Notes under the pieces: generated by a model
What the model was told of the DNA's origin: nothing
The model's database searches: none
Seen by the model: the letters and a program-made list of their open reading frames with translations, nothing else
In this document: positions 25,929 to 44,762 of the stretch, piece after piece
How the letters are laid out: every line of letters begins with the position of its first letter
Numbering within the stretch: the first letter of the stretch is position 1
Assembly: GCF_001999945.1 (NCBI RefSeq)
Contig: NZ_CP019650.1
Coordinates: 1,054,001-1,118,000, forward strand
Length of the DNA: 64,000 nt
From: Microbulbifer agarilyticus
GTDB lineage: Bacteria > Pseudomonadota > Gammaproteobacteria > Pseudomonadales > Cellvibrionaceae
Direction: 5' to 3'
Position numbers and translations under genes: made by a program

Positions 25929-25944
25929 ATGACAACGCTGTCAT
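25929..25944. promoter_or_regulatory. LacI-family operator before nagK
   Basis: ATGACAACGCTGTCAT is a near-perfect palindrome centred on CG, the form expected for LacI-family regulators. Three more copies of the same pattern occur at 34982, 44722 and 44747. It overlaps the likely -35 element of nagK, so repression by blocking RNA polymerase is the simplest reading. Confidence 0.8.
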
Positions 25945-25958
25945 TTGTCTTGTACTAT
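25929..25958 (+). promoter_or_regulatory. Likely nagK promoter
   Basis: The -35-like ATGACA (25929-25934) and -10-like TACTAT (25953-25958) are 18 bp apart, giving a leader of about 115 nt. The -35 element is part of the operator palindrome. Confidence 0.45.
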
Positions 25959-26081
25959 TTCCTCATACACAGATTGGTACAGGCGTCACTGGCGTCTCAC
26001 CGGAATCCCCTGGGGCGCAGACGATGCGGTGGGGAGGTCCGGTAAGGAAACATAACAATAGAAATCTTAGGGGCCGGTTAG

Positions 26082-27032
26082 ATGGTTGCTTTGAGAGACA
26101 GCAGGGACATACTCTTTATTGGCGTCGATGGTGGTGGCAGCAAATGCCGCGCATCCATCTTCGATGCCGACAATCGCCTGCTTGGTACCGGGGTCTCTGG
26201 GCCCGCAAACCCCCTTCATGGTTACGCTCAAACCATTGATTCAATCGTGCGTTCTGCCGCCCTCGCGGTGACAGATGCTGGTCTGCCCGCCGAAACCCTT
26301 GGCGAGTTGGTGGCTGGTGTTGGTCTTGCCGGGCTCAACATGCCTCGTCTTTACAACGAGATGAATGCCTGGGCGCACCCGTTCAAACAAATGTTCCTCA
26401 CTACCGATCAGCACTCCGCGTGCCTGGGCGCCCATCGCGGCGGCGACGGCGCGGTGATTATTGCTGGCACCGGCTCTGTCGGTTACTCGTGGGTCAATGG
26501 CCGCAGTGAGATTATCGGTGGTCACGGTTTCCCTCACGGTGACAAAGGTAGTGGTGCCTGGCTGGGTATGGAGGCGGTGAAGTACCTGCTGATGGCAATG
26601 GAAGGACTCGCCGAAGACTCCATGCTCAAACGCGAGCTGGAATCAGCGCTCGATACCAGTGATCCCTACGATGTAATTGAAATGATGGCCGGTAAACCGT
26701 CCAGCCAGTACGCCAAGCTGGCCGTGCCCGTGGTGGAATGTGCCGAGGCAGACTGTCCGGTTGCTGCATCGATCATGCGCGATGGTGCGGCCTACATCAG
26801 TGATCTTGCGGATAAGTTGATGGAAGGCAAGTCGCCTCGTCTGGCCATGATAGGTGGCCTGGCACCGCGCTTGAAGCCCTGGCTGAAACCGCATGTAGCG
26901 GAGCAGGTTGCCGACCCGCTGGACCCGCCGGAACTGGGCTGTGTGTACTTTGCGCAGCACTCTCTCGCGGCTCTGGGCGGCAATGATTCCGGTTCTGGTG
27001 ATGAGGTTGAGGCCAAAGCGCTCTTTGGATGA
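26082..27032 (+). CDS. nagK: N-acetylglucosamine kinase, BadF/BadG/BcrA/BcrD ATPase family
   Basis: A sugar kinase of the ASKHA fold, 316 aa, that phosphorylates GlcNAc to GlcNAc-6-phosphate. It is unrelated to the ROK-type NagK of E. coli and resembles the eukaryote-type GlcNAc kinase described for Shewanella-like pathways. The phosphate-1 motif FIGVDGGGSKCRASIFD is at about residues 12-28, and GTGSVGYSWVNG gives the phosphate-2 region. Because uptake here is through NagP and not a PTS, a cytoplasmic kinase is required, and gene order nagK-nagB-nagA-nagP supports the assignment. The gene heads the operon behind a LacI-type operator. Confidence 0.9.
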   Translation: MVALRDSRDILFIGVDGGGSKCRASIFDADNRLLGTGVSGPANPLHGYAQTIDSIVRSAALAVTDAGLPAETLGELVAGVGLAGLNMPRLYNEMNAWAHPFKQMFLTTDQHSACLGAHRGGDGAVIIAGTGSVGYSWVNGRSEIIGGHGFPHGDKGSGAWLGMEAVKYLLMAMEGLAEDSMLKRELESALDTSDPYDVIEMMAGKPSSQYAKLAVPVVECAEADCPVAASIMRDGAAYISDLADKLMEGKSPRLAMIGGLAPRLKPWLKPHVAEQVADPLDPPELGCVYFAQHSLAALGGNDSGSGDEVEAKALFG

Positions 27033-27119
27033 GCGCTGTAAGTCGTTAGAACACACAGGTTGTCGGAAGGCCGCAGGCTGTCTGAAGACACGGTCAGATA
27101 TAAGTTACGGATAGATTTT

Positions 27120-28163
27120 ATGAGTGCAGTGACCTCTGGTGAGGCCAACAAGGTGGATGCTTCTATGGCGATGACAGTAATGGAGCGCGAGGCCCGTGAA
27201 GCCCCGAGCCGGGTTGCCGAGCAACTGAAAAACAATGCGCCGATTATGGAAGCGCTGGGTGAGCGCTTGCGGAGCAAGCCGCCGCGTTTCGTGATGATCG
27301 TCGGCCGTGGCTCTTCCGATCACGCTGGTGTTTTCGCCAAGTACCTGATCGAAATTGAGACCGGTACCCCGACGTTCGCTGCGGCGCCTTCGGTGTCCAG
27401 TGTGTATGGCAAAAAACTGAAGCTGGAAGATGCACTGGTTATCGTCATCTCCCAGTCTGGCCGTAGCCCGGACATCCTCGCGCAGGCGCAAATGGCGAAA
27501 GACGCCGGTGCCTATACCATCGCGCTGGTAAATGATGAGTCTGCACCGATTAAAGATATCGTTGACCAGGTTGTGCCGCTAAAGGCCGGCCCGGAATTGG
27601 CCGTTGCTGCGACCAAGAGCTATCTGTGCACCCTCTCTGCGGTGCTGCAGCTGGTAGCCAACTGGACGCAGGATGCCGAGCTGATGGCCGGTGTTGAGAT
27701 GCTGCCGCAAACCCTTACCGATGCAATTGAGTCCGATGTGCAGCTGCGCCCGGAAGATCTGGCCGCTGTAAAGAACTTGGTTGTTCTCGGTCGCGGCCCT
27801 GGCTACGGCATTACCCGCGAGCTGGCGCTGAAGCTGAAGGAAGTGTGCAGTGTGCACGCAGAATCTTTCTCCAGTGCGGAATTCCTGCACGGCCCGGTAA
27901 CTCTGGTAGAGCAAAAGCTCACCGTGGTGAATGTCCCGATTGAAGATGAATCCTATCAGGCGCACAGCGAACAGATCGCTGACATTATCCGTCGCGGCGG
28001 TACCCTGATTAATCTGCATGTGCCGAGTAAAGGTGTGCACCCGCGGGTTGCTCCGCTGGCCTTGCTGCAGCGCTTCTATATCGATGTTGCCCACGTGGCG
28101 GTGAGCCGTGGTATCAACCCAGACGAGCCGGCGGGTCTGAAAAAAGTTACTCAAACCGTGTAA
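27120..28163 (+). CDS. nagB-II: SIS-domain glucosamine-6-phosphate deaminase (NagB-II type)
   Basis: A protein of 347 aa with two sugar-isomerase (SIS) domains, related to the C-terminal half of GlmS. In Shewanella-type pathways this family replaces the classical NagB and converts glucosamine-6-phosphate to fructose-6-phosphate and ammonia. SIS motifs are visible at VGRGSSDHAGVFAKYLIE (about residue 60), VISQSGRSPDILAQ (about 110) and VLGRGPGYGITRELALKLKE (about 222), with the AESF-SSAEFLHGP segment near 250. The glutaminase domain of GlmS is absent, which argues for the catabolic role. The frame is open from a TTG at 27060, but the ATG at 27120 gives the normal start. It lies 87 bp after nagK. 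Confidence 0.9.
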   Translation: MSAVTSGEANKVDASMAMTVMEREAREAPSRVAEQLKNNAPIMEALGERLRSKPPRFVMIVGRGSSDHAGVFAKYLIEIETGTPTFAAAPSVSSVYGKKLKLEDALVIVISQSGRSPDILAQAQMAKDAGAYTIALVNDESAPIKDIVDQVVPLKAGPELAVAATKSYLCTLSAVLQLVANWTQDAELMAGVEMLPQTLTDAIESDVQLRPEDLAAVKNLVVLGRGPGYGITRELALKLKEVCSVHAESFSSAEFLHGPVTLVEQKLTVVNVPIEDESYQAHSEQIADIIRRGGTLINLHVPSKGVHPRVAPLALLQRFYIDVAHVAVSRGINPDEPAGLKKVTQTV

Positions 28164-28206
28164 CTAGACCGTTTAATTGCAGTAATCCAGGACGCGGGGC
28201 AAAACA

Positions 28207-29334
28207 GTGGCACAGGCATATATCGCCGAACAGCTTTTTGATGGAGAGCAGTTGCGCAAGGACGTGGCGCTTACCATCGACGGCGGCAAGATTGTCTCCT
28301 TGGGTGGTGCGCCTGTTGCTGATGCAACCCGCCTGCGCGGATTGTTGGCGCCGGGCTTGATTGATGTTCAGGTGAACGGTGGCGGTGGTGCCCTGTTTAA
28401 CAACGACACCACCGTGAATGCCCTGGGCAAAATGTCGACGGCCCACGCGCGCTTTGGCACCACGGGTTTTGTGCCCACCCTGATTACCGATCAGGTGGAT
28501 GTAATGCAGAAGGCCGCGGATGCGGTGAGCGCGGCGCTGAAAGAAGGTGTGCCCGGCGTGCTGGGTGTGCACTTTGAAGGACCGCACTTGAGTGCACCGA
28601 AGAAGGGTACGCACGAAGAGCGGTTTATCCGTCCACTCAGCGATGAAGAGTTGGCGATTTATGCCCGCGATGACCTCGGTCTGAAAGTGGTGACCCTGGC
28701 GCCGGAAAATGTAGCGCCGGAAGATATCGCCAAGTTGGTATCGCTGGGTGTGAAGGTTTGTCTTGGGCATTCCAATGCCGACGGCAAGACCGCGGCGGCA
28801 GCCGTCGCTGCTGGCGCGACCGGATTTACCCATTTATACAACGCCATGTCGCCGTTGCATTCTCGCGATCCAGGCATGGTCGGCACTGCACTGATCAGTG
28901 ACGGTTGCTGGTGCGGCTTGATTGCCGATGGCCACCACGTAAGTGCGGAAGCCATGACGCTGGCGCTGAAAGCCAAGCCGCGCGGCAAGATTATGCTGGT
29001 GACCGATGCGATGTCGCTGGTTGGCAGTGACGAGATGAGTTTTCCGTTGTTCGATCGCGTGGTAACGCGCGATGGCGACAAGCTGACTTCGACGACCGGT
29101 GAGCTGGCCGGGTCGCACCTGGATATGATTGGTGCGGTGCGCAACATTCGCGACTGGTGTGGCGTCGAGCTGAGTGAAGCCTTGCGTATGGCGGGTTTGT
29201 ATCCCGCTCAGTTCCTTGGCTTTGACGGCGGACGCATTGCGGAGGGGAGTGCGGCCGACATGATTTTACTGGGTGGCGATGGCCAGATGCGCAAAACCTG
29301 GATCAGCGGACAGGAAGTGTTTTCCGCAGACTGA
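28207..29334 (+). CDS. nagA: N-acetylglucosamine-6-phosphate deacetylase
   Basis: An amidohydrolase-superfamily enzyme of 375 aa (E. coli 382) that removes acetate from GlcNAc-6-phosphate to give glucosamine-6-phosphate. Conserved pieces include GLIDVQVNGGGG, VHFEGPHLS with the metal-binding Glu, CLGHSNAD and GFTHLYNAMSPLHSR with metal and substrate histidines, LIADGHHV, and VTDAMSLVG with the catalytic Asp. The start is GTG at 28207 with GGGG seven bases upstream; no ATG is suitably placed. It stands between nagB-II and nagP and completes the intracellular steps from GlcNAc to fructose-6-phosphate. Confidence 0.95.
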   Translation: MAQAYIAEQLFDGEQLRKDVALTIDGGKIVSLGGAPVADATRLRGLLAPGLIDVQVNGGGGALFNNDTTVNALGKMSTAHARFGTTGFVPTLITDQVDVMQKAADAVSAALKEGVPGVLGVHFEGPHLSAPKKGTHEERFIRPLSDEELAIYARDDLGLKVVTLAPENVAPEDIAKLVSLGVKVCLGHSNADGKTAAAAVAAGATGFTHLYNAMSPLHSRDPGMVGTALISDGCWCGLIADGHHVSAEAMTLALKAKPRGKIMLVTDAMSLVGSDEMSFPLFDRVVTRDGDKLTSTTGELAGSHLDMIGAVRNIRDWCGVELSEALRMAGLYPAQFLGFDGGRIAEGSAADMILLGGDGQMRKTWISGQEVFSAD

Positions 29335-29405
29335 CCATCTGCATGCATACAAAAATTGATGACGAAATTTATTAACGCTAGATAACGATAATTAAAGGTG
29401 ACTCT

Positions 29406-30737
29406 ATGAATACCGCAGTTATTAGCCAGAGCGAAACGCGCAGTAGCGTTTTGCCGATGGTAATCATCGGCCTGCTATTTTTCATTTTTGGTTTTGTTAC
29501 CTGGCTGAACGGTGCTCTGATTCCGTTCCTGCAAACCATTTGTGAGCTGAGTGCCTTTGAGGCCATGCTCGTAGCTTCCGCCTTTTATATCGCCTATACC
29601 GTAATGGCGTTGCCCATGGCTGCGATCATTGAGCGCACCGGTTACAAAACTGGTATGGCACTGGGACTTGCCCTGGTTGCTGTGGGTGCCCTGATCTTTA
29701 TTCCGGCGGCTTATAGCCGTATGTTCGGTATCTTCTTGCTCGCGCAGTTTGTTGTGGGCTCTGGTCTCACCATTCTGCAGACTGCCTCTAACCCGTACGT
29801 AGTAAAAGTTGGTTCTCCGGATACTGCGGCGGTGCGCATTTGCATCATGGGTCTGTTGAACAAAGGTGCCGGTATTGTTGCGCCGCTGGTATTTACCGCG
29901 CTGGTTATGTCTGGCATCAGCGGTGTAAGTGACGCAGAACTGGCTGCACTTGCCGCAACTGCGAAAGATGCCAAGCTGGACGAGCTGGCGGGTCAGCTGG
30001 TTACTCCGTACATCGGCATGGCAATTCTCGGATTTATCCTGGCCGTTGCGATGATGTTCGCACCGCTGCCGGATATTGAAGACGAAGCCATCGAAGGCCA
30101 GGAAGAGATGGCGGTAAACCTGCCTGCGCTGCTGAAGTTCCCGCAGCTGATCCTAGGTTCCATTGCGCTGTTCTTCTACGTAGGTGTTGAGGTGATTGCC
30201 GGCGATGCGATTGGTCTGCTGGGTAAGCAGGCGGGTCTGGATACCGCGGTGGCTTCTGTGCTGACGTCTTACACCATGGTATTTATGGTATTGGGCTACC
30301 TCTGGGGCACCGTTGCGATCCCGCGCTTTATCAGCCAGCAAACCGCGCTGCTGCTCTCCGCTGTGCTGGGAATCCTGTTTACTATTGCGGTAATGACCGG
30401 TTCTCTTGAGAGCACCGTGATGTCCTCTGCAACCCTGGCTATCTTCGGTCTGCCTGAAATTCCCAACGCAGTTTACTTCGTAGCATTGCTGGGCTTTGCC
30501 AACGCCATGTGCTGGCCGGCAATCTGGCCGCTGGCGCTGGATGGTCTGGGCAAGTTCACCTCCAAGGGTGCCGCGCTGCTGATTATGGGCATCTCTGGTG
30601 GTGCGATTCTGCCGCCGCTGTACGGCCACTTTGCCGACACCGGTGACGGCCAGCTGGCATACGCCATCGCCATTCCGGCTTACCTGTTTATTCTTTTCTA
30701 TGCTCTGAAAGGGCACAAAATGCGCAGCTGGAAGTAA
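29406..30737 (+). CDS. nagP: N-acetylglucosamine permease of the MFS (FucP/GluP-like)
   Basis: An inner-membrane transporter of 443 aa with about twelve predicted membrane segments. It belongs to the fucose/glucose-galactose permease group of the major facilitator superfamily. The opening VIIGLLFFIFGFVTWLNGALIPFLQ and the segment QTASNPYVVKVGSP are typical of this group (both shown in part of longer conserved stretches). The same family member in Shewanella nag clusters is NagP, a proton-coupled GlcNAc importer, and the position after nagA supports that substrate. It closes the operon, with a terminator about 65 bp downstream. Substrate assignment is by context. Confidence 0.9.
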   Translation: MNTAVISQSETRSSVLPMVIIGLLFFIFGFVTWLNGALIPFLQTICELSAFEAMLVASAFYIAYTVMALPMAAIIERTGYKTGMALGLALVAVGALIFIPAAYSRMFGIFLLAQFVVGSGLTILQTASNPYVVKVGSPDTAAVRICIMGLLNKGAGIVAPLVFTALVMSGISGVSDAELAALAATAKDAKLDELAGQLVTPYIGMAILGFILAVAMMFAPLPDIEDEAIEGQEEMAVNLPALLKFPQLILGSIALFFYVGVEVIAGDAIGLLGKQAGLDTAVASVLTSYTMVFMVLGYLWGTVAIPRFISQQTALLLSAVLGILFTIAVMTGSLESTVMSSATLAIFGLPEIPNAVYFVALLGFANAMCWPAIWPLALDGLGKFTSKGAALLIMGISGGAILPPLYGHFADTGDGQLAYAIAIPAYLFILFYALKGHKMRSWK

Positions 30738-30801
30738 CCCTTCCCGCTGTTGTTATCGCAACAGTCAGTTTTATGCTTTCTCTTTGGTTCTCGTCATCTT
30801 T

Positions 30802-33345: not shown

Positions 33346-33441
33346 CTTCAAATGCGTCCTTGAATTATTATTTTGGGCAACGGCAAAAAGCCTTCCTGCC
33401 GCCCGAGAATTTGAATGTAAATCGTTGGTTGTCTCTCCTAG

Positions 33442-33641: not shown

Positions 33642-33690
33642 GAGAGAAGAGAGAAGAGAGAAGAGAGAAGAGAGAAGAGAGAAGAGAGAA
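33642..33690. repeat. Heptanucleotide microsatellite, (GAGAGAA) x 7
   Basis: Seven perfect tandem copies of GAGAGAA between the end of lacI and the promoter region of the receptor gene. On the receptor strand it reads as a polypyrimidine TTCTCTC tract. Copy number may vary by slippage. Confidence 0.95.
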
Positions 33691-33697
33691 GGAGAGA

Positions 33698-33713
33698 GGG
33701 GCTTAATAGCCCC
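33698..33713 (-). terminator. Hairpin downstream of lacI, possible terminator
   Basis: Stem GGGGCT-TAAT-AGCCCC lies 34 bp beyond the lacI stop. On the minus strand it is followed by CTCTCTCC and not a T run, so intrinsic termination would be weak. Confidence 0.4.
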
Positions 33714-33746: not shown

Positions 33747-34796
33747 TTAGCCCGCTGGTGAATCGCCAGTAGAGTCACGTACCAGCAGTTCCGGCACAAA
33801 TACCTTAGTAATACCGGCCTCTTTGTTTGCCGCAGCGCTTTCCGCAGCCCCTTTGCTTCGGGCTTTATTCAATACCAGCGCGGCCGCGCACTTGGCGATT
33901 TCACTGTTGGGCTGGTGCGCGGTAGTGAGTTTCGGCCACGTCTGACGGGAGAAGGGGCTGTCCTCGAAGCCGACAATAGAGAGTTGCTCCGGGATCTCGA
34001 TATGCATCAGGCGTGCGGCAAACAGTGCCCCCGCCGCCATTTCATCGTTACTCGCAAAGATGGCGGTGGGTGGGTTGTCGCTTTCGAGTAGTGCCTTAGC
34101 GCCGGCCACACCGGAGTCAAAGGAATACTCGCCAGGGATGACCAGCTCTGGCGCCAAGTTGATGCCAGCCTGCTGCAAGGCTTGCTTGTAGCCGTCCAGG
34201 CGCCCGTGGGTGGAAACGTGCTCCTCGCCACCGGACAGGAAGCCGATGCGCTGGTGGCCATGCTCAATCAGGTGCTTGGTGATATCGAAGGCTGCCGCAG
34301 TATCGTCAACCTGAATACAGTTGTCTTCGTCGCCTTCGGCGGCGCCGCTGGAGACGATACGGACATAGTCGAGGTTGAGCTTGTTTACTTCATCAATGAC
34401 CGACTGGGTCTCGGAGAAGGGCGGGGTCAGTACTACGCCGGCAACCTTGGAGTGCTCCACCAGGGCCCGCAACTCGTCGTTAACCGTATCGGACTTTGAA
34501 TTGCTGGGGTGGATCAGTAGCTCGTAGCCACGCGCCTTACACGCCTCGAGAATACCGTTCTGCATGTCGATCACGTAGTAGGCGTTCGGGTTGTCGTAGA
34601 TCAGCGCAATGGTGTAACTGCGGGTGCCCGCAAGGTTACGGGCCGCCAGGTTTGGTTGGTAGTGAAGCTCTTCAACCGCATCCATCACTTTCTTGCGGGT
34701 GGCGGGCCGTACCGAGGGTTCATTATTGATCACCCGGGAAACGGTCTTGATCGACACCCCGGCCCGTGCAGCCACGTCGTTGATGGTGCTTTTCAT
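33747..34796 (-). CDS. LacI-family transcriptional regulator of sugar catabolism
   Basis: A regulator of 349 aa. The N-terminal helix-turn-helix (TINDVAARAGVSIKTVSRVINNE) and the hinge (LHYQPNLAARNLAGTRS) are intact, and the rest is a periplasmic-binding-protein-like effector domain (IALIYDNPNAYYVIDMQNGIL, FASNDEMAAGALFAA, SIVGFEDSPFSRQTWPKLTT in parts). The gene is divergent from pgi, and the gap holds a 16-bp palindrome with central CG, the classical LacI-family operator form. The same palindrome precedes nagK and the second receptor gene. I infer that this protein binds all four sites, senses a sugar or sugar phosphate of the GlcNAc/Entner-Doudoroff route, and may control its own gene. The effector is unknown. 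Confidence 0.88.
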   Translation of the reverse strand: MKSTINDVAARAGVSIKTVSRVINNEPSVRPATRKKVMDAVEELHYQPNLAARNLAGTRSYTIALIYDNPNAYYVIDMQNGILEACKARGYELLIHPSNSKSDTVNDELRALVEHSKVAGVVLTPPFSETQSVIDEVNKLNLDYVRIVSSGAAEGDEDNCIQVDDTAAAFDITKHLIEHGHQRIGFLSGGEEHVSTHGRLDGYKQALQQAGINLAPELVIPGEYSFDSGVAGAKALLESDNPPTAIFASNDEMAAGALFAARLMHIEIPEQLSIVGFEDSPFSRQTWPKLTTAHQPNSEIAKCAAALVLNKARSKGAAESAAANKEAGITKVFVPELLVRDSTGDSPAG

Positions 34797-35107
34797 GTCT
34801 GGCGTTTTCCTTGTCTTTGCCTAACCCGCAAGTTTAACCGGTTCCGGGCTGCGCGACGATGGCCTGACAGTCATTCACGCTTTTGTTGTGCCTAGTTCAG
34901 TGCGCGCCGCACTGGCGCCTGTGGAAAAAAACTACAAGCCCGATTGACAGCTTCCACCAACTATGTGACTCTCTCGCCAATTTGACAGCGTTGTCATTTT
35001 GCTCGGTGGTTCTCGCTCAGGGGGTGTGAAAGCAGCGAGATAAACGGGTAAATAACAATAACCGGTGCCCGCAACCCCAGTGCTGGCATCACTTTCCGGG
35101 GGTCGCT
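34797..35107. other. Divergent intergenic region, lacI / pgi
   Basis: About 310 bp. It contains a LacI-type operator at 34982-34997 and a TTGACA at 34944-34949 that could be a -35 element, with no clear -10 partner. A GGGGTCGC ribosome site precedes pgi. No further gene is visible. Confidence 0.55.
34982..34997. promoter_or_regulatory. LacI-family operator between lacI and pgi
   Basis: TTGACAGCGTTGTCAT matches the nagK operator in 12 of 16 positions on the plus strand and in 15 of 16 when one is read on the opposite strand. It is 111 bp before the pgi start and 186 bp before the lacI start, so it may control both. Confidence 0.78.
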
Positions 35108-36841
35108 ATGCACTCTGACACTTCTTCATCTCAACCACTAGCACATTCACCTATCTGGCAGGCGCTGCAGGCGCAAGCCGCCGAGTTCAAGCAGGCGTCG
35201 CTGAAGGGCCTGTTTGCTGTAGATCCGCAGCGGGCCGAGCGTTTTTCGCTCGAGCTGCCGGAGTTCCTGCTGGATTTCTCGAAAAACCTGCTCGACCAAG
35301 AAGTTTTTGTAAATTTATTACGCTTGGCGGAAGAGGCGGAATTGCCCCGCTGGTGCGCAGATTTCTTCGCCGGCAAGCCAATTAATGCAACTGAGGGCCG
35401 GGCAGTGCTGCATCCCGCGCTGCGTGGGGGTTTACAAGAAGATATCGAGATCGATGGGGATTTCGTCACGGCCCAGGTCGAGGCTGAATTGGAGCGCTTG
35501 AAAAAGTTTGTAGTTTTACTACATAATGGGGCCCTGACTGGCTATCGGGGTAAAAGGTTTACCGATGTAGTCAATCTTGGGGTAGGTGGCTCCCATCTCG
35601 GGCCGCAAACCACCATCGAAGCGCTGCGAGCCCACCGGAAGGGCGATGTCGCAGTGCATTTCGTTTCCAACGTGGATGGAACTCAGCTCACGGATGTGCT
35701 GGCCGGCCTGGATGCCGATTCGACACTATTTATTGTCTCGTCCAAGACGTTTACGACCAGCGAGACAATGACCAATGCCCGCAGCGCACATGCGTGGCTG
35801 CAGCGGGCGATGCCGGAAGTGGATGGGGAGGTGTTACTACAGCAGCACTTTGCTGCGGTGACCTCCAGTCCCGATAAGGCGCAGCAGTTTGGGGTATTGC
35901 CAGAGCGGACCTTCCGGTTCTGGGATTGGGTTGGGGGGCGCTTTTCACTCTGGTCCTCCATCGGCTTGCCAATTGCGATCGCCTGCGGCTTTGAGAACTT
36001 CCGCGCGCTGCTGGATGGCGCTGCGAGCATGGACAAGCACTTCCGCGAAGCGCCGCTGGAAACCAATGCGCCGGTGATTATGGCGCTGCTGAGTGTCTGG
36101 TATTGCACCTTTATGGGCTACCCGGCACACGCCGTACTGCCCTACGAGCAGGCACTGCATATGTTGCCTTCGTATTTGCAGCAAGCGGATATGGAGAGCA
36201 ATGGCAAATCAACCACCCGCGCCGGGGTGGCGGTGGATTACCCCACCGGCCCTCTGATCTGGGGGCAGACGGGTATTAATGGGCAGCATGCGTTTTATCA
36301 GTATCTGCACCAGAGCCCGGAAGTGGTGCCGGCGGACTTTATTGGCAGCGTGGCACCCGGGCACGACCTGGATGGTCACCACGAAATTTTGCTGGCCAAC
36401 ATGTTTGCCCAGAGCCAGGCGCTGATGAACGGTGTGGATGCCGAGTCAGTGGCTAGCGAGCTGGCAGCCAAGGGGCTGTCGCAAGAAGAGATAAAAAGGC
36501 TCACCTCATTCAAAGTACACAGGGGTGGAAAGCCAAGTAACACAATACTCTTGAAAGAGTTGGACCCCCGATCACTGGGAGCGCTGATCGCACTCTATGA
36601 GCACAAAATTTTTGCGCAGGGTGTGATTTTGCAAATTTATTCTTTTGATCAGTGGGGAGTGGAACTGGGTAAGGGCCTGGCGAATAAACTGGAGCCGAAA
36701 CTGGCTGCGGGAGATTTGTCGGGCGAAGACAGTTCTACGACTCAACTGATCGAATACTACCGCCGGAAAAAGAACGGCGCGGTTATGTCCACGGAGCTAC
36801 CGGAAGTTGCGGTGGCTGAGTCTGCTGGAGAACAGGCTTAA
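35108..36841 (+). CDS. pgi: Glucose-6-phosphate isomerase
   Basis: Pgi interconverts fructose-6-phosphate and glucose-6-phosphate. The protein has 577 aa, slightly longer than E. coli Pgi (549). Conserved segments are VGVGGSHLGP (appearing as LGVGGSHLGPQ), VSSKTFTTSETM, the GGRFSLWSSIGLPIA signature, the YEQALHMLPSYLQQ region, and FDQWGVELGK with the C-terminal active-site part. Here its likely job is to carry fructose-6-phosphate from amino-sugar breakdown into glucose-6-phosphate for the zwf step, since edd, zwf, pgl and eda follow on the same strand. It is the first gene of that run, and a LacI-type operator lies upstream. Confidence 0.96.
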   Translation: MHSDTSSSQPLAHSPIWQALQAQAAEFKQASLKGLFAVDPQRAERFSLELPEFLLDFSKNLLDQEVFVNLLRLAEEAELPRWCADFFAGKPINATEGRAVLHPALRGGLQEDIEIDGDFVTAQVEAELERLKKFVVLLHNGALTGYRGKRFTDVVNLGVGGSHLGPQTTIEALRAHRKGDVAVHFVSNVDGTQLTDVLAGLDADSTLFIVSSKTFTTSETMTNARSAHAWLQRAMPEVDGEVLLQQHFAAVTSSPDKAQQFGVLPERTFRFWDWVGGRFSLWSSIGLPIAIACGFENFRALLDGAASMDKHFREAPLETNAPVIMALLSVWYCTFMGYPAHAVLPYEQALHMLPSYLQQADMESNGKSTTRAGVAVDYPTGPLIWGQTGINGQHAFYQYLHQSPEVVPADFIGSVAPGHDLDGHHEILLANMFAQSQALMNGVDAESVASELAAKGLSQEEIKRLTSFKVHRGGKPSNTILLKELDPRSLGALIALYEHKIFAQGVILQIYSFDQWGVELGKGLANKLEPKLAAGDLSGEDSSTTQLIEYYRRKKNGAVMSTELPEVAVAESAGEQA

Positions 36842-36887
36842 CAACAACGTGTGGCGGGCCGATAAAAAAACGAAGAGTTGATCAAAA

Positions 36888-38720
36888 ATGGCAAACCAAA
36901 CAGCGGTAAACAGTCGCATACAGGCGGTGACCGACAGGATCATTCGCCGCAGTGAAGAAACCCGGGCCAAGTACCTGGCCCAGGTTGAACGCGCGCAAGG
37001 CAAAGGCCGGGCACGTCACAACCTTGCTTGCGGGAACATAGCGCATGCAATGGCGGCTTCCAGCGATCACGATAAAAATCTGATCGCATCCGGACAGGGT
37101 CCAAACCTGGCCATCATCAATGCCTACAACGATATGTTGTCTGCGCACCAGCCGTACGGCGCCTATCCCGATATGTTGAAGGCCGAAGCGCTGCGCAACG
37201 GCGCAACAGCACAGGTTGCCGGTGGCGTGCCGGCAATGTGCGACGGGGTGACTCAGGGGCAGCCGGGCATGGAATTGTCACTGTTTTCCCGTGACGTCAT
37301 TGCCATGGCTACAGCCATTTCCCTGTCCCACGACATGTTCGATGGTGGCCTGTATCTCGGTATTTGCGACAAGATTGTTCCTGGACTGGTAATTGGTGCG
37401 CTGTCATTCGGCCACCTGCCTGCGGTATTTGTGCCCGCAGGCCCAATGCCCACCGGCCTGTCAAATTCGGAAAAGGTTCGCGTTCGACAGTTGTATGCAG
37501 AGGGCAAAGTTGGTCGTAAAGAACTGCTGGAAGCCGAGAGTGCTTCTTATCACAGTGCCGGTACCTGCACCTTCTACGGCACCGCCAACAGTAATCAGAT
37601 GCTCGTGGAGATCATGGGCCTGCAGTTGCCGGGCAGCTCCTTCGTTAATCCGGGTACGGAATTGCGCGACGCGCTGAATCAAACTGCAGTGAAGCAGCTG
37701 GTGCAAATTTCCGAGCCCAGCAACTACACCCCAATTGCCAAAATTCTTACCGAAAAAGCGTTTGTGAATGGCATTGTCGGCCTGCATGCCACCGGTGGTT
37801 CTACCAACCACACCATGCATTTGATTGCGATGGCGCGCGCCGCCGGTATCCAGATTACCTGGCAGGATATGGCTGAGTTGTCTGAAGTAGTACCGCTGCT
37901 GTGTCACGTGTACCCGAATGGTACTGCCGACATCAACCACTTTGCGGCCGCAGGTGGTATGCAATACCTGATTCGCGAGTTGCTGGGTGCAGGTTTGCTG
38001 CACAACGACGTGAGCACCGTGCTCGGCGACTCCGGTATGGAGTCTTATACCTACGACCCATTCCTAAACGATGACAAGACTGGCCTGGTGTGGCGCCCGA
38101 CTGCGGAAGAGTCCGGGAATCCTGACATTATTCGCCCGGCGAACGATCCGTTCTCTAGTCATGGCGGCCTGCAGTTGTTGAAAGGCAATTTGGGTAATAG
38201 CGTGATCAAGGTGTCTGCGCTGAAATCTCCACAGCTGAAAGTTACTGCTCCGGCAGTGGTGTTTAACAGCCAGAATGATCTGCTGGATGCGTTCAAAGCG
38301 GGCGAGCTGGAAAAGGACTTTGTCGCAGTGGTGCGCTTCCAGGGGCCGCAAGCGAACGGCATGCCGGAACTGCACAAGCTGACGCCTTCGCTCGGCGTTC
38401 TGCAGGATCGAGGCTTCAAAGTAGCGCTTGTTACTGACGGCCGTATGTCTGGTGCCTCCGGCAAGGTACCAGCGGCAATCCATCTGTCTCCAGAAGCTCT
38501 GGAAGGCGGCATGGTAGCCAAAATTCAAGATGGCGACCTCATCGAGCTCGATGCGGAAGCCGGTGTTCTCAAAGTACATGTAAGTGATGAAGAGCTGGCG
38601 GCAAGAGCGCCAGCGGAATGCGATTTGTCTGGCAATGACACAGGCATGGGCCGCGATCTCTTTACCAATATGCGCAAGCTCGCAAGCGGCGCGGAAACCG
38701 GTGGCAGCATTCTTTTTTAA
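36888..38720 (+). CDS. edd: 6-phosphogluconate dehydratase
   Basis: Edd converts 6-phosphogluconate to 2-keto-3-deoxy-6-phosphogluconate (KDPG), the first reaction specific to the Entner-Doudoroff pathway. The protein has 610 aa (E. coli 603), of the IlvD/Edd family. Cysteines expected to hold the iron-sulfur cluster are in [27 protein letters not shown] and [16 protein letters not shown]. The C-terminal substrate region with [16 protein letters not shown] is present. It starts 46 bp after pgi and is followed 60 bp later by zwf, so a common transcript is likely. Confidence 0.97.
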
Positions 38721-38780
38721 CTGAAATTCACGCGGGGTCTGCAAAAAAAGATACCCGCGTCTTTGTTTGAGAGCAGAACA

Positions 38781-40238
38781 ATGGCAAAAGCATTCGACAT
38801 GGTACTGTTTGGTGGCGGCGGAGATCTGTCACTGCGCAAATTGATTCCCGCGTTGTACCGCGCATTTATCGAAGGTGGCCTCGACAAGGGCACCCGCATT
38901 TTCCCGGTGTGTCGTCGCCAGGAAGATGCCGATGCGTACATGAATACCGCTCAGCAGGCGCTGAAAACCCACCTGCGTGACGGTGAGTATTCGGATAAGC
39001 AGTGGAAAGCTTTCAGCCCGCTGCTACGCGCGGTGTCTTTGGATATTTCCAAGCCCGACGAGCAATGGGATGTATTGGTAGATTTGCTGGGCAACGATGT
39101 CGAGCGCACTCGTCTGTTTTATCTGGCGATTCCTCCGGCAGTTTTCGGCCCCTGCTGTGAAAACCTGTCTGTTAAAGGTTTGATCCACGAAAACTCCCGC
39201 GTCGTGGTAGAGAAGCCGCTGGGCTACAACGCCAAAACTTCCGACGAAATTAACAGCAAAATCGCAGAGTACTTCCGCGAAGAAAGTATTTTCCGTATCG
39301 ACCACTACCTGGGTAAGGAAACGGTTCAAAACTTGCTGGCGCTGCGCTTTAGCAATGTGCTGTTTGAGCACCTGTGGGATGCCAAGACCATTGATCAGAT
39401 CCAGATCAGCATTAATGAAACCGTGGGTCTTGAAGGGCGCGCCGGTTTCTACGATGACACTGGCGCAATGCGGGACATGGTTCAGAACCACCTGCTGCAG
39501 TTGCTGTGCCTGATTGCGATGGAATCGCCCAACAGCATGTCCGCCCGCAATATCCGCTCCGAGAAAATCAAGGTGTTGGAAGCCCTGCGTCCGCTGACAG
39601 ACGACGATGTAGATGAAAATATCGTGCGCGGCCAGTATGTGGCCGGTGGCCTGGGCGAAGAGCTGGTGCCCGGTTACCTGGAAGAATTGAAAGCACCGAA
39701 TAGCACCACCGAAACATTCGTCGCGATTCGTGCGCACATCGACAACTGGCGTTGGACCGGTGTGCCGTTCTACTTGCGCACCGGCAAACGTATGGAAAAG
39801 CGTTGTGCGGAAATTGTTATTCAATACAAGAACGTTTCCCATAGTGTGTATCAGCCGGAAGCCGGCGAGGTGTTGCCCAACCGCCTGGTGATTCGCCTGC
39901 AGCCGGAAGAGAGTATCAAGCTGGTGCTGATGGCGAAGAAAATGGACAGCCTGACCATGGAGCTGCAACCAGTTGAGCTGAACCTGTCGCTGTCTGAAAC
40001 CTACGACAGCTTCAAGAGTGACGCCTACAAGCGCCTGATGCTGGATGCGGCGGCGAATAACTCGGCGCTGTTTATTCACCGCGATGAAGTCGCTGCGGCC
40101 TGGGCATGGGTCGACCCCATCATGGACCGCTGGCGCGAAACCAACAACCAGCCGCAGCTTTATCGCGCGGGCACCTGGGGGCCACAAGCCTCTAACCAAC
40201 TGCTGGCGGAAAATGGTCACCACTGGTTTAACCCTTAA
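38781..40238 (+). CDS. zwf: Glucose-6-phosphate 1-dehydrogenase
   Basis: Zwf oxidises glucose-6-phosphate to 6-phosphoglucono-lactone, making NAD(P)H. The protein has 485 aa. The N-terminal dinucleotide fold shows FGGGGDLSLRKLIPALY, and the active-site signature FRIDHYLGKETVQN lies near residue 175-188. A TTG at 38763 is in frame, but the ATG at 38781 gives the standard start and has GAGAGC upstream. It lies between edd and pgl. With pgl and edd it supplies KDPG to eda. Confidence 0.96.
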   Translation: MAKAFDMVLFGGGGDLSLRKLIPALYRAFIEGGLDKGTRIFPVCRRQEDADAYMNTAQQALKTHLRDGEYSDKQWKAFSPLLRAVSLDISKPDEQWDVLVDLLGNDVERTRLFYLAIPPAVFGPCCENLSVKGLIHENSRVVVEKPLGYNAKTSDEINSKIAEYFREESIFRIDHYLGKETVQNLLALRFSNVLFEHLWDAKTIDQIQISINETVGLEGRAGFYDDTGAMRDMVQNHLLQLLCLIAMESPNSMSARNIRSEKIKVLEALRPLTDDDVDENIVRGQYVAGGLGEELVPGYLEELKAPNSTTETFVAIRAHIDNWRWTGVPFYLRTGKRMEKRCAEIVIQYKNVSHSVYQPEAGEVLPNRLVIRLQPEESIKLVLMAKKMDSLTMELQPVELNLSLSETYDSFKSDAYKRLMLDAAANNSALFIHRDEVAAAWAWVDPIMDRWRETNNQPQLYRAGTWGPQASNQLLAENGHHWFNP

Positions 40239-40284
40239 ACGAATTATTCAGTAAAAGAATTAATTTCAAAATCGGTCATAAGAC

Positions 40285-40995
40285 ATGGTTGAAGAAAAGT
40301 TTTTTGCAGATCGAGAGCGCCTGACGCTGGCGCTCGCCAATGAGTGCGCTGCTGCTCTGCATGAAGGTATCAAAGAGAACGGTCAGGCGACGTTCCTGGT
40401 AAGTGGCGGTAGCTCGCCCGAGCCGGTTTATCGCGAACTGTCCCGTCGCCCGCTCCCATGGGAGAAGGTAAATGTAGCGCTGGTTGATGAGCGCTGGGTA
40501 GAGAAAGACGAATCGGGCAGCAATCTGGCATTTATTTCTAATACCTTGCTGCAAAACGAAGCGGCCAAGGCGCCGTGTCTGGGTATGAAAAATGCCGCAG
40601 CCACGCCATCCGCAGGCGAAGCAGATTGTGAGCGCGCTTTTCAAGAGTTGCCACGCCCTTTCGACGTGTGTGTATTGGGTATGGGTAACGATGGCCATAC
40701 CGCTTCCTTCTTCCCGTACGCGGAAGGATTGGAAGAAGCGCTCGATCCGAAGAGTGAAAAGCTGTGCAAAGCCATTACTGCCAAACAAAGCGCAGTCACC
40801 GGTGTGCACACCGAGCGTATGACGCTGACACTTGCGGCAATTTTGCAGGCAAAAGAAATTAAATTGCTGATCTCTGGCGAAGAGAAGCTGAAAGTGTATC
40901 GCCAGGCTCTGCTGGGCGATGACGTGCTGGAAATGCCCGTTCGCAGCATTCTCAAGCAGGGATCAAAGCCGGTCACTGTGTACTGGGCACCTTAA
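40285..40995 (+). CDS. pgl: 6-phosphogluconolactonase (DevB type)
   Basis: Pgl hydrolyses 6-phosphogluconolactone to 6-phosphogluconate. The protein has 236 aa and belongs to the NagB-like fold family of DevB lactonases. Typical segments are FLVSGGSSPEPVYRELS near residue 37, VNVALVDERWVEKDESGSN, and VLGMGNDGHTASFFPYAEGLEEAL (given in part), where the His lies in the catalytic GHTAS motif. The related fold is shared with classical NagB, but the GMGNDGHTAS and DERWV motifs and the position between zwf and eda favour lactonase. Confidence 0.95.
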   Translation: MVEEKFFADRERLTLALANECAAALHEGIKENGQATFLVSGGSSPEPVYRELSRRPLPWEKVNVALVDERWVEKDESGSNLAFISNTLLQNEAAKAPCLGMKNAAATPSAGEADCERAFQELPRPFDVCVLGMGNDGHTASFFPYAEGLEEALDPKSEKLCKAITAKQSAVTGVHTERMTLTLAAILQAKEIKLLISGEEKLKVYRQALLGDDVLEMPVRSILKQGSKPVTVYWAP

Positions 40996-41054
40996 TTTAT
41001 CGGGCCCTAGGCCATTTAAATAACAACGAATTAGACGAGATTTAGGAATTGACC

Positions 41055-41684
41055 ATGCAAGAGACTCTTGTACCCGTATTGGAACAGGCTGGCGTTGTGC
41101 CGGTAATCGTGATCGATAACGTGAGTGATGCACTGCCGCTGGCGCAGGCGTTGGTAGAAGGCGGCCTGAACGTACTGGAAGTCACTCTGCGCACAGAGGC
41201 AGCGCTGGCTGCGGTTGAAGAGATTGCCAAGCACCTGCCAGATGCACACGTAGGTACCGGTACGGTGTTGAATGCTGGCGACATCCGTCGCTCCGTGGAT
41301 GCCGGCGCGACCTTTATGGTGAGCCCGGGCGCGACCGACGCTTTGCTGGATGCCGCTGCCGATGTATCGGTACCCATGTTGCCGGGCGCTGCTAACCCCT
41401 CAGATGTTATGCGTCTGCTGGAACGTGGCTATGGCTACCAGAAGTTCTTCCCTGCGGAAGCGGCCGGTGGTGTGCCGATGCTGAAATCCATCGGCGGCCC
41501 GCTGGGCCAGGTTAAGTTCTGTCCTACCGGCGGTATTGGACCGAAGAACGCGATGGATTATCTGAACCTGTCCAACGTTGTTTGTGTTGGCGGTTCCTGG
41601 ATGGCGGCTCCGAAATTGGTAGCAGAAAAGAACTGGGCTGAGATCACGCGTCTCGCGAAAGAGGCTTCCCAGTTAAAAGGCTGA
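41055..41684 (+). CDS. eda: KDPG/KHG aldolase
   Basis: Eda cleaves KDPG to pyruvate and glyceraldehyde-3-phosphate, completing the Entner-Doudoroff pathway. The protein has 209 aa, near the E. coli length of 213. It is a class I aldolase: the Schiff-base lysine lies in GYQKFFPAEAAGG, the catalytic Glu in LEVTLRTEAAL, and GTGTVL and FCPTGGIGPKN hold the phosphate and substrate loops. I chose the ATG at 41055 with AGGAA seven bases upstream rather than the TTG at 41049. It is followed by a small TCAAGATTGA-centred hairpin and then gap. Confidence 0.96.
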   Translation: MQETLVPVLEQAGVVPVIVIDNVSDALPLAQALVEGGLNVLEVTLRTEAALAAVEEIAKHLPDAHVGTGTVLNAGDIRRSVDAGATFMVSPGATDALLDAAADVSVPMLPGAANPSDVMRLLERGYGYQKFFPAEAAGGVPMLKSIGGPLGQVKFCPTGGIGPKNAMDYLNLSNVVCVGGSWMAAPKLVAEKNWAEITRLAKEASQLKG

Positions 41685-41707
41685 TTCAGCCTGAATGGAT
41701 TCCAAAA

Positions 41708-41721
41708 TCTCAAGATTGAGA
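41708..41721 (+). other. Hairpin TCTCA-AGAT-TGAGA after eda
   Basis: A perfect 5-bp stem with the core TCAAGATTGA, 24 bp after the eda stop. The same core recurs in a hairpin at the pyk stop (44425-44440). There is no T run, so it is not an intrinsic terminator. Confidence 0.5.
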
Positions 41722-41798
41722 CAACGCGCTGGGGGGGATTTGCACTCAGCGTCGCGATACAAAATTCATAAACTTTACAAGACAAAGGGTGTAGCGAT

Positions 41799-42812
41799 AT
41801 GAAACTCAAAATTGCTATTAACGGATATGGTCGTATTGGCCGCAATGTCACTCGTGCAATTTACGAGTCTGGCTATAACGACCGTATCCAACTGGTTGCG
41901 ATTAACGATCTGGCACCGGTGGAAGCCAATGCCCATCTGACCCGCTTCGATACCGTACACGGCCGCTTCAATACCGAAGTTGTGGTTGAGGGTGAGAACC
42001 TGGTTATTGGTGGTGACACTGTGAAAGTTTGCCAGGAGCGCGATCCTGCCGCCTTGCCATGGGCGGAACTGGAAGTGGATCTGGTACTTGAGTGTACCGG
42101 TCTGTTCACTGATAAAGCTGCAGCGTCCAAGCACATGGAAGCTGGTGCAAAAGCGGTACTGATTTCTGCTCCGTCCAAAGACGCAGATCTGACCGTGGTT
42201 TACGGTGTGAACGACGACAAGCTGACGGCAGAGCACAAAGTTGTGTCCAACGCTTCCTGTACCACTAACTGTCTGGCACCGGTTGCCAAGGTGCTGAATG
42301 AAGCGATTGGTATCGAGCGCGGCTTTATGACCACCGTTCACGCTTACACCAACGATCAGAACACCCAGGATGCGGTGCACAAAGATATCTATCGTGCACG
42401 TGCAGCCGCAGACAACATGATTCCGACCAAGACTGGCGCGGCTGCCGCGGTAGGTCTGGTGCTGCCGGAACTGCAGGGCAAGCTGGACGGTATGGCGGTA
42501 CGTGTACCAGTGAACAATGTTTCCCTGGTGGACTGCCAGTTTATTGCTAGCCGCGAAACCACTGCAGACGAAATCAATGCGATTCTGCAGGACGCTGCCG
42601 GTACCATGAAAGGCGGTGTGCTGTCCTACTGCGATCAGCCTCTGGTTTCTGTGGACTTTAACCACACCGCAGCTTCCAGCCACTTTGACGCCAACCACAC
42701 CCGTGTAAACGGTAACCTGGTGAAAGTGATGTCCTGGTACGACAACGAGTGGGGCTTCTCTCACCGTATGCTCGACACCAGTCTGGCCATGGCCAAAGCC
42801 CAGGGTCTGTAA
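41799..42812 (+). CDS. gap: Glyceraldehyde-3-phosphate dehydrogenase, type I
   Basis: Gap oxidises glyceraldehyde-3-phosphate with phosphate to 1,3-bisphosphoglycerate. The protein has 337 aa. The NAD-binding start [20 protein letters not shown], the catalytic [13 protein letters not shown] with Cys at residue 154, and the His in [14 protein letters not shown] are intact. The [16 protein letters not shown] loop is of the TGDQ type common in Gram-positive and plastid-like enzymes and differs from the E. coli GapA loop, so it may be a distinct paralogue acting after the aldolase step. Asp in VAINDL is consistent with NAD use. It lies 114 bp after eda and 177 bp before pyk. Confidence 0.93.
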
Positions 42813-42852
42813 TTACTTCTGTAATAGCAGCCGGATAACCTTGCGTTATCCC

Positions 42853-42881
42853 GCCCGGGTGAGTGCAAGACTCACTCGGGC
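42853..42881 (+). terminator. Hairpin between gap and pyk, possible partial terminator
   Basis: A 12-bp stem GCCCGGGTGAGT/ACTCACTCGGGC with one G-T pair and a GCAAG loop, followed by CTGTTCTT. The tail is poor in T, so some transcripts may read through into pyk. Confidence 0.6.
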
Positions 42882-42989
42882 CTGTTCTTGACCTTGCTAG
42901 CGGGTTTGGTAGCGAGGTAAGCGGTCAACGATGACTGCGATCACAATGAATCGGTCTCACTTCACATTCAAATACAAAAAACCACCACT

Positions 42990-44426
42990 ATGATTCGCCA
43001 TACAAAAATTGTTGCCACACTCGGCCCGGGCACGGACAAGCCGCGTGTAATTGACGAGATTATCCGCGCCGGCGTAAATGTTGTACGCCTGAACTTTTCC
43101 CACGGCAGTGCCGATGACCACCGCAAACGTGTGGAAGAAGTGCGCCGCGCCGCTGCAGAGCAAAACAAACTGGTTGCTGTTCTGGGCGACCTGCAGGGCC
43201 CGAAAATTCGAATTGCCCGTTTTGCGGAAGGCAGTATCTTCCTGGAAAACAACGCCGAGTTCACCCTCGACGCCGATTGCCCGAAAGAGGGTGGTAACCA
43301 GCAGCGTGTGGGTGTCGATTACCCTTCACTGATCGCAGACTGTAAGCCCGGTAATATTCTGCTGTTGGACGATGGCAAGATTCGCCTGGAAGTCACCGGT
43401 GGTACCAATAGCAAGCTGTTCTGTCGTGTACTGCAGGGCGGCAAGCTGTCCAATAACAAGGGTATTAACCTGTTAGGCGGTGGCCTTTCCGCGCCGGCGC
43501 TTACCGAAAAAGACTACGGCGATATCAAACTCGCTGCTGAATTGGATGTGGACTTCCTCGCTGTGAGCTTCCCGCGCAGCGGTGAAGACCTGGATATCGC
43601 GCGCAAGGCGATGCGTGAAGCGGGTAGCAATGCCGCGATCGTTGCCAAGGTGGAGCGCGCTGAAGCGGTCAACGATGATGCGCAGATGGACGGTATTATT
43701 CTGGCGTCTGATGTGATCATGGTGGCCCGTGGTGACCTGGGTGTAGAAATCGGTGATTCGGCGCTGGTAGGCGTGCAGAAGAAACTGATCAACCGAGCCA
43801 ATGAACTGAACCGCGGTGTGATCACTGCGACTCAAATGATGGAATCCATGATCACCAACCCGACCCCGACCCGCGCCGAAGTGATGGACGTGGCCAACGC
43901 GGTTCTGGATGGCACCGATGCAGTGATGCTGTCTGCGGAAACCGCCGCTGGCGACTTCCCGGTAGCGGCGGTAGAGTCCATGGCGGAAGTAGTTGTTGGT
44001 GCGGAGCAGTACCTGGGTACTACCTCTCGCCCGGCTGCTGATCGCTCTTCTTCCGAGACCATCGATACCGTGATTGCTCAGGCAGCAATTGAGTCTGCGG
44101 CCCGCGTTGAGAACCTGTGTGCGGTAGCAGCACTGACCGAGTCTGGCCGTACCCCACGTATCATGTCTCGTGCCACCAGTCAGTTGCCGATCTTTGCAAT
44201 GACTCGCCACTCGCGTGTTGCCCGTCAGTTGGTACTGCTGCGTGGTGTGGAGCCGATTGAGTTTGACCCGGCGTCTGTGCCGCTCGGCCACCTGACCGAC
44301 GCGATCGTTGAGGTATTGGGTTCCCGTATCGATCTGGAAAAAGGCCAGCGTATCCTGATTACCCAGGGTGAGCGCCTGAACATGGGCGGTGGTACCAGCT
44401 CCATGCGCATCAAGGAAATCGAATAG
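42990..44426 (+). CDS. pyk: Pyruvate kinase
   Basis: Pyruvate kinase makes ATP and pyruvate from phosphoenolpyruvate. The protein has 478 aa, the PykA/II length. The family opening TKIVATLGPGT, the NFSHGS motif, LGDLQGPKIRI, VMVARGDLGVEIG and the signature ITATQMMESMITNPTPTRAE (in part) are all present, followed by the allosteric C-terminal domain ending in QGERLNMGGGTSSMRIKEIE. It is the last gene of the sugar run and ends at a strong terminator. With gap, it allows glyceraldehyde-3-phosphate from the aldolase step to reach pyruvate, though phosphoglycerate enzymes must come from elsewhere. Confidence 0.96.
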   Translation: MIRHTKIVATLGPGTDKPRVIDEIIRAGVNVVRLNFSHGSADDHRKRVEEVRRAAAEQNKLVAVLGDLQGPKIRIARFAEGSIFLENNAEFTLDADCPKEGGNQQRVGVDYPSLIADCKPGNILLLDDGKIRLEVTGGTNSKLFCRVLQGGKLSNNKGINLLGGGLSAPALTEKDYGDIKLAAELDVDFLAVSFPRSGEDLDIARKAMREAGSNAAIVAKVERAEAVNDDAQMDGIILASDVIMVARGDLGVEIGDSALVGVQKKLINRANELNRGVITATQMMESMITNPTPTRAEVMDVANAVLDGTDAVMLSAETAAGDFPVAAVESMAEVVVGAEQYLGTTSRPAADRSSSETIDTVIAQAAIESAARVENLCAVAALTESGRTPRIMSRATSQLPIFAMTRHSRVARQLVLLRGVEPIEFDPASVPLGHLTDAIVEVLGSRIDLEKGQRILITQGERLNMGGGTSSMRIKEIE

Positions 44427-44450
44427 GTCAAGATTGACCTGTCGTTTGAA

Positions 44451-44476
44451 AACCCCGGTCTTGCCGGGGTTTTTTT
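44451..44476 (+). terminator. Terminator after pyk
   Basis: Stem AACCCCGG-TCTTG-CCGGGGTT followed by a T run. A separate hairpin AGGTCA-AGAT-TGACCT overlaps the pyk stop at 44425-44440. Confidence 0.9.
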
Positions 44477-44599
44477 ATGGGTGGTTGTTTTACATTCTGC
44501 CCTGTGTGGTCAAGGGGCATGAGCCAGTCGGCCTCTCATGTGGGGTCCGCCCAAAAAGTTTGTACAAATTTTGTACTGCACCTGCCCGAAATTAGAGTA

Positions 44600-44640
44600 A
44601 ATCTCACTTCGAACTGTCATAAATGACAGTTAGTGAGATT
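44600..44640. promoter_or_regulatory. Large nested inverted repeat
   Basis: The outer arms AATCTCAC/GTGAGATT (44600-44607 and 44633-44640) enclose the inner arms AACTGTCAT/ATGACAGTT (44612-44620 and 44623-44631) around a 2-bp centre. The inner arms contain operator half-sites ATGACAG in the everted orientation. There is no T run, so it is not a terminator. Confidence 0.7.
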
Positions 44641-44721
44641 AGAAAGACGGCAATTACCCAGATATTTTCCTTCCCGAGCGGTAGCTTTTTCTTTCCAGAG
44701 TGTGTATTGTCGATCGTGAGA

Positions 44722-44737
44722 ATGACAGCGCTATCAA
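44722..44737. promoter_or_regulatory. LacI-family operator, distal copy, before the second receptor
   Basis: ATGACAGCGCTATCAA keeps the left half of the nagK operator and the CG centre; the right half has TATCA in place of TGTCA. It lies 96 bp from the receptor start. Confidence 0.72.
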
Positions 44738-44746
44738 AGCTATCAA

Positions 44747-44762
44747 ATGACAGCGCTATCAT
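44747..44762. promoter_or_regulatory. LacI-family operator, proximal copy, before the second receptor
   Basis: ATGACAGCGCTATCAT is identical to the distal copy except for the last base, and starts exactly 25 bp after it. The repeated sequence AGCTATCAA lies between the two. Confidence 0.75.

Follow-up and report, generated by a model that had tools for sequence, protein, structure and literature searches.

Among the described systems closest to the locus treated here, a 64-kb window of the 4.26-Mb single-contig genome of Microbulbifer agarilyticus (NZ_CP019650.1, positions 1,054,001 to 1,118,000) in which N-acetylglucosamine (GlcNAc) genes and an Entner-Doudoroff run share a palindromic box, the first is the regulon of the LacI-family protein NagR (SO3516) of Shewanella. 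It comprises nagK-nagBII-nagA, nagP, an outer-membrane receptor, a hexosaminidase, and chitin genes, and zwf served as negative control in quantitative PCR (PMC3223726), whereas in Microbulbifer such boxes also head the pgi-Entner-Doudoroff run, pgk-fba, and acs. Second, the NagC of Vibrionales is likewise a GlcNAc regulator reaching glycolytic genes (gapA, gapB, fbaA, pgk, and eno), but it is described as a ROK-family protein, whereas the Microbulbifer regulator belongs to the LacI family and reaches the Entner-Doudoroff run (PMC5343134). Third, HexR and RccR of Pseudomonas are RpiR-family regulators of central carbon genes that respond to 2-keto-3-deoxy-6-phosphogluconate (KDPG), and RccR binds 15-bp sites before aceE that have the sequence found here (PMC5489143), whereas in Microbulbifer such a box also lies within the coding sequence of pgi. 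Finally, GluR, GapR, and PckR of Alphaproteobacteria exemplify LacI-family control of zwf-pgl-edd and similar genes, but with other motifs, in other lineages, and with no GlcNAc genes named in the available text (PMC4052901). The 'nagR' of PMC3338528 is a LysR-type naphthalene regulator; the accessible part of PMC2996990 mentions NagR but neither pgi, halogenase, nor SapC, and that of PMC5945002 has nothing on TonB or SapC. In the literature covered, seen in part and with RegPrecise, supplements, and most subscription papers outside its scope, we found no report of NagR control of a pgi or Entner-Doudoroff run, or of a promoter in pgi. The parts of the present locus are of known kinds; their arrangement and a putative promoter outliving its gene are new.

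Four palindromes with a CG centre were read directly in the window, none assigned to a strand: ATGACAACGCTGTCAT ahead of the nag operon (25929..25944), TTGACAGCGTTGTCAT between nagR and pgi in the promoter region P1 (34982..34997), and a twin, ATGACAGCGCTATCAA (44722..44737) and, 25 bp further, ATGACAGCGCTATCAT (44747..44762), ahead of a TonB-dependent receptor. As judged from sequence, they are very likely operators of a NagR-type LacI protein, and it is just as likely that another promoter, P2, serves the Entner-Doudoroff run from inside pgi, where it bears a HexR/RccR-type box. Arm pairing is complete (6 bp) at 25929 and extends to 5 bp at 34982; in both receptor sites the arms differ by one C/T mismatch (TGACA/TGATA). 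With up to three mismatches to ATGACANCGNTNTCAT, the window gave 36 strand-matches, palindromes being counted on both strands, against 13.0 (standard deviation 4.4) in shuffles, and with at most one mismatch these four sites only. The stricter pattern TGACARCGYTGTCA occurs at six places in the genome and its backwards control at none; with two mismatches allowed, counts of 93 and 101 stand against 78 and 83 for the control, and because these counts are so close, all analyses of the NagR box were restricted to sites with at most one mismatch. The initial annotation had reported the four palindromes, as confirmed here; its remark that no other intergenic region carries a copy holds for the window but not for the genome, where more copies exist.

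To place these boxes in a wider context, the LacI protein was used as query, and 80 named loci were retrieved, each with as much as 10 kb of flanking sequence. Counting only BLAST-labelled genes for which the locus covers the 430 bp upstream, and with many loci closely related, boxes stand at the heads of operons, namely before nagK in 24/26, pgi in 53/55, and TonB receptors in 42/46 cases, and are rare before operon-internal genes (edd 1/27; nagP 0/22; zwf 0/44; pgl 0/44; gap 0/16; pyk 0/19). The initial annotation had asked whether the motif is conserved upstream of nagK, pgi, and receptor genes, and in these loci it is. Among the 16 Microbulbifer loci listed, the paired receptor boxes have a spacing of 24-26 bp in 15 and of 21 bp in L058. 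Furthermore, the order nagR-box-pgi-edd-zwf-pgl-eda recurs in three genomes of other families (L310-L312), so that control of the run by NagR appears to predate the genus.

The second element, P2, is a sigma-70-like TTGAAA-18-CATAAT (35498..35527, + strand) within pgi (35108..36841, +), and its spacer contains, inside pgi codons, the HexR/RccR-type box TGTAGTTTTACTACA (35509..35523, no strand assigned), found by a scan with a HexR consensus. This box is identical, on the other strand, to TGTAGTAAAACTACA, one of the two 15-bp sites bound by P. fluorescens RccR before aceE, where KDPG lowers the affinity of RccR for the 15-bp site (PMC5489143). Across all 23 intact cluster pgi genes of the genus, synonymous identity over the six codons at the box is 1.00, where the median is 0.54, which ties it for the top two among 571 windows. 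Leucine is encoded there by TTA and CTA, each of which makes up only about 5% of leucine codons in these genes. The NagR box and the in-pgi box (exact or with one mismatch) occur together in 23/23 cluster pgi genes of the genus, and neither accompanies the other pgi in 7/7 loci among the matches listed. After the edd loci had been completed to all 40 genus genomes, the P2 element was present in 40/40; its positions 12-15, 18-28, and 30 (of 30) are invariant, and the -35 varies more than the box and the -10. A weaker HexR/RccR-like box in pgi (35308..35322, no strand assigned), 201 bp ahead of the main one, is not conserved in every species.

A candidate reader of the P2 box is encoded in the genome, as a HexR-type protein (L118:1486-2340) scores 309.1 bits with NF008451 (cut-off 296). 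The three other exact HexR/RccR-type boxes of the genome precede ppc, gap, and aceE, and with at most one mismatch the box is found at 8 places against 2 for the control pattern.

Further evidence for P2 comes from genomes in which its carrier gene has decayed. An intact cluster pgi is absent in 17/40 genus genomes, yet the element is kept in all 17, 205 to 719 bp before edd. With the element masked and targets reaching 90 bp past the pgi end, blastn on 11 of these genomes detected pgi remnants in eight (G157, G145, G144, G165, G176, G173, G164, and G149) and none in G152, G148, and G150. The remnants are 70-88% identical and, where several exist, in pgi order. In the eight remnant genomes the element differs from its nearest pgi-borne copy at 0 or 2 of 30 bases and is thus kept beyond the identity of the remnants (combined P 7e-15). 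This value counts the near relatives G165 and G176 as separate cases and is based on the best among six variants of the element; for G144 alone P is 0.06. On the edd tree the state of pgi changes nine times, of which at least six changes are forced by well-supported branches. The tree itself cannot separate gain from loss, but pgi is present in its outgroups, two Aliikangiella, which together with the remnants favours loss. Coding constraint alone as an explanation of the pgi element was rejected on the strength of the synonymous-site conservation and this persistence.

The NagR box between nagR and edd is retained in 5/17 pgi-less genomes (G144, G145, G165, G176, and G164). Where pgi was lost, NagR control of the run thus appears mostly to have been lost too, while the HexR/RccR-type element stayed. 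Loss of the cluster pgi seems tolerable, since the genome has another pgi (G000:C1:3061645), with which it shares 47% identity, and since a gene of the phosphofructokinase (PFK) family is present; repeated decay and the loss of the NagR box agree with this. Taking these observations together, we think it likely, though with less assurance than for P2 itself, that a KDPG-controlled promoter arose within pgi of an older NagR operon, allowed expression of the Entner-Doudoroff genes without pgi, and survived each decay of pgi (at least six state changes), so that what had been part of a coding sequence became a promoter of the usual upstream kind.

Two other readings of the element need to be weighed. 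In the first, the in-pgi box would serve no promoter but would be a roadblock at which a HexR/RccR-type protein stops transcripts from P1; its location inside the first gene, some 510 bp past the NagR box, suits such a role. The pgi-less genomes nevertheless keep the box together with the -10 and, less strictly, the -35, and in 12/17 of them no upstream NagR box is left, which makes a pure roadblock unlikely. Second, NagR alone might drive the run from P1, with the pgi sequence conserved for the protein or for some other reason. The presence of the NagR box ahead of pgi in 53/55 loci agrees with this, as do L310-L312, which share the gene order and the NagR box but lack the HexR-type box in pgi, and a mechanical promoter scan over 34780-45000, which returned 2 matches against 6.2 in shuffles (the better one, 10/12, being P2). 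Since constraint falls on synonymous positions, and since the element changed at 0 or 2 of 30 bases where remnants of pgi are at 70-88% identity, we regard control from P1 alone as improbable, and given P2 we discarded NagR as the only regulator of the Entner-Doudoroff run. The proposal that one LacI-type regulator governs everything from uptake to the central trunk, made in the initial annotation, accordingly finds support for the nag operon, uptake, and the head of the run, but not for the trunk as a whole, for which the putative P2 with its HexR/RccR-type box in pgi is a second candidate input and a HexR-type protein is encoded in the same genome.

Turning to the protein that would read the palindromes, the local LacI protein (nagR, 33747..34796, - strand, 349 aa) has both the LacI helix-turn-helix and the sugar-binding core (PF00356 and PF13377 above cut-off), and its nearest named relatives are in Microbulbifer, with 99% identity to an M. 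agarilyticus protein. It is 57-58% identical to two Shewanella proteins (not SO3516), and similarity combined with common neighbourhoods indicates orthology with Shewanella NagR. The Shewanella loci L103 and L113 carry the same box at the receptor and hexosaminidase, and L113 also at nagK; in L113, nagK, hexosaminidase, and TonB receptor adjoin the NagR gene. The initial annotation had pointed to a related motif for NagR in Shewanella-type GlcNAc pathways. A further mark of the NagR type, one operator shared by nag, receptor, and chitin genes, is present as well. In S. oneidensis, NagR binds such targets, and the electrophoretic mobility shift of nagK DNA is suppressed by GlcNAc (PMC3223726). 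The conservation of the box, the Shewanella boxes, and binding by S. oneidensis NagR are our grounds for calling the protein NagR, and, on comparative evidence, it is the best candidate for control of GlcNAc breakdown, outer-membrane uptake, and the head of the pgi-Entner-Doudoroff run.

The box also follows the regulator through the order. Among 145 genomes, the 14 with a NagR match above 300 bits, a line set after the match scores were known, all contain exact TGACARCGYTGTCA (49 sites), compared with 13 of the remaining 131 (14 sites; Fisher P 1.8e-12), and the backwards control has 13 sites over all 145 genomes, none of them in the 14. If instead every NagR match at E 1e-40 is taken, exact boxes are found in 17/29 versus 10/116 genomes. 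That some other regulator would read the boxes, be it the product of the second LacI-family gene or a protein of another family, is therefore highly improbable, although divergent NagR paralogues that share the recognition helix show no box nearby. The box tracks the NagR ortholog over these genomes, and in 66/79 loci it is found no more than 430 bp ahead of nagR. Of the two LacI-family genes of the genome, the second has only 34% identity and is surrounded by unrelated genes (for an SMP-30/gluconolactonase, an FAA-hydrolase-like protein, and an aldehyde dehydrogenase), so that we judged its product an unlikely binder.

The paralogues just mentioned (L059-L062; L055 and L061 are both from M. 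variabilis ATCC 700307) are second NagR-like proteins of about 65% identity, and they adjoin edd and nagA-nagB with a HexR/RccR-type element.

Elsewhere in the genome, a pattern search with inspection of neighbouring genes placed exact or one-mismatch boxes before three glycoside hydrolase family 18 (GH18) chitinases, a GH19 chitinase, a GH20 hexosaminidase, another TonB receptor, acs, and pgk followed by the class II aldolase gene fba. The regulon as first drawn, right in outline, was thus too small. In the best 30 of the 40 genus genomes, acs is preceded by an exact box at 27 of 30 loci and pgk by a box at 25 of 30, counts that lean to nearer relatives given this choice. Further one-mismatch sites, such as those at a bioD-like gene and at a LuxR pair, may be due to chance and were set aside.

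Our model is as follows. In the absence of inducer (GlcNAc, by analogy with Shewanella NagR), NagR would block nagK-B-A-P, the TonB receptor cluster, and P1 at the head of pgi-edd-zwf-pgl-eda-gap, as well as the chitinases, hexosaminidase, pgk-fba, and acs elsewhere, all of which would be released together with GlcNAc use. Breakdown of GlcNAc yields fructose-6-phosphate and acetate; acs would reclaim the acetate set free by NagA, and Pgi would carry the fructose-6-phosphate of NagB to the Entner-Doudoroff entrance. KDPG, the product of Edd, would then open P2, closing a feed-forward loop. Being located after about 130 codons of pgi, P2 could supply edd to gap without Pgi, and the protein bound there might also block transcripts from P1, making the two inputs an AND gate. 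An obligatory route through Pgi for want of a phosphofructokinase was considered and ruled out, a PFK-family gene having been found.

Several observations weigh against this picture. The P2 hexamers alone prove nothing, because the promoter scan stays below shuffles, and a P2 transcript would have more than 1.3 kb of pgi as leader. By tblastn on all 17 pgi-less genomes, remnants were detected in 7 and not in the other 10, namely G144 (positive by blastn), the three that were also negative by blastn, and G172, G147, G156, G179, G151, and G015; the NagR box between nagR and edd, moreover, is gone in 12 of the 17. The four one-mismatch HexR/RccR-type sites of the genome showed no link to central metabolism among the neighbours inspected. 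On the side of NagR, only 7/20 hexosaminidase-like genes of the 80-locus set have an upstream box, and the box is missing at 3/30 acs and 5/30 pgk loci. Finally, fructose-6-phosphate need not pass through Pgi, as a PFK-family gene is present.

The locus offers a natural experiment in which a regulatory element hidden in codons is exposed by repeated loss of its carrier gene, so that the cost and lifetime of promoters embedded in coding sequence become open to comparative study. It further suggests that a chitin regulator extends to core sugar metabolism and acetate recovery, and the placement of halogenase homologues associated with a TonB receptor in a GlcNAc/chitin regulon is a lead for their substrates.

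The gene assignments of the initial annotation hold throughout, all the following genes being on the + strand. The nag operon consists of nagK (26082..27032, NF046058), nagB-II (27060..28163, NF046059), and nagA (28207..29334, TIGR00221), all above cut-off, and a nagP-like major facilitator superfamily transporter (29406..30737), which reaches 524 bits with NF046060, below the cut-off of 625, but is above cut-off for the gluP family. Downstream of pgi follow edd (36888..38720, TIGR01196), zwf (38763..40238, TIGR00871), pgl (40285..40995, TIGR01198), eda (41049..41684, TIGR01182), gap (41799..42812, TIGR01534), and pyk (42990..44426, TIGR01064). Between gap and pyk lie a terminator-like hairpin (42853-42881) and a weak promoter-like site, promoter-like sites being no commoner than in shuffles; a single transcription unit reaching pyruvate is therefore uncertain, and pyk is perhaps its own unit. 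The twin boxes precede the TonB-dependent receptor (44833..47376, TIGR01782 above cut-off), which is followed at 47493..52380 by SapC (47493-48209), two Trp-halogenase homologues (48232-49797 and 49804-51318), and a TauE/SafE-like protein (51325-52380). A Trp-halogenase homologue also occurs in 31 of 55 NagR loci outside Microbulbifer, so that a cluster associated with the TonB receptor is a better description than the halogenase locus of the initial annotation. The Trp-halogenase motif used for comparison is WxWxIP; both homologues (48232-51318) lack it in exact form and show WIWDIG and WAWQID.

Around the boxes of the window, the ATGACA of the 25929 box also lies 18 bp ahead of a -10-like TACTAT (25953-25958), which is TAGTAT in most relatives shown. 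Upstream of the twin boxes, an inverted repeat, ATCTCACT..AACTGTCAT-AA-ATGACAGTT..AGTGAGAT, spans 44601-44639, with NagR-like half sites facing outward. The first TonB receptor (30880-33351) is without an upstream NagR box at up to one mismatch, and an AG-rich short tandem repeat of gagaaga units (33646-33700) lies downstream of nagR.

Outside the window, a box, TGACAACGTTGTCA, stands ahead of a DUF882 gene adjoining L,D-transpeptidases (L022, G000:C1:591599), with a box in the same place in G144 (L280). One GH18 chitinase (L027:6360-9605, L281-L305), found in 25/40 genus genomes, all 25 of which were used, has a NagR box before its start and a second within its coding sequence in 25/25 orthologues, at a spacing of 378-410 bp in 24 and 548 bp in L302, and among the 1067 windows of the gene, synonymous conservation is highest at the inner box. 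The layout resembles that of lac O1/O2, and looping may bring the second box, some 380-410 bp further on, together with the first. Another GH18-type gene (L030, G000:C1:1776023), at which we found no upstream box, has a one-mismatch NagR box in its coding sequence, within a Big_7 domain.

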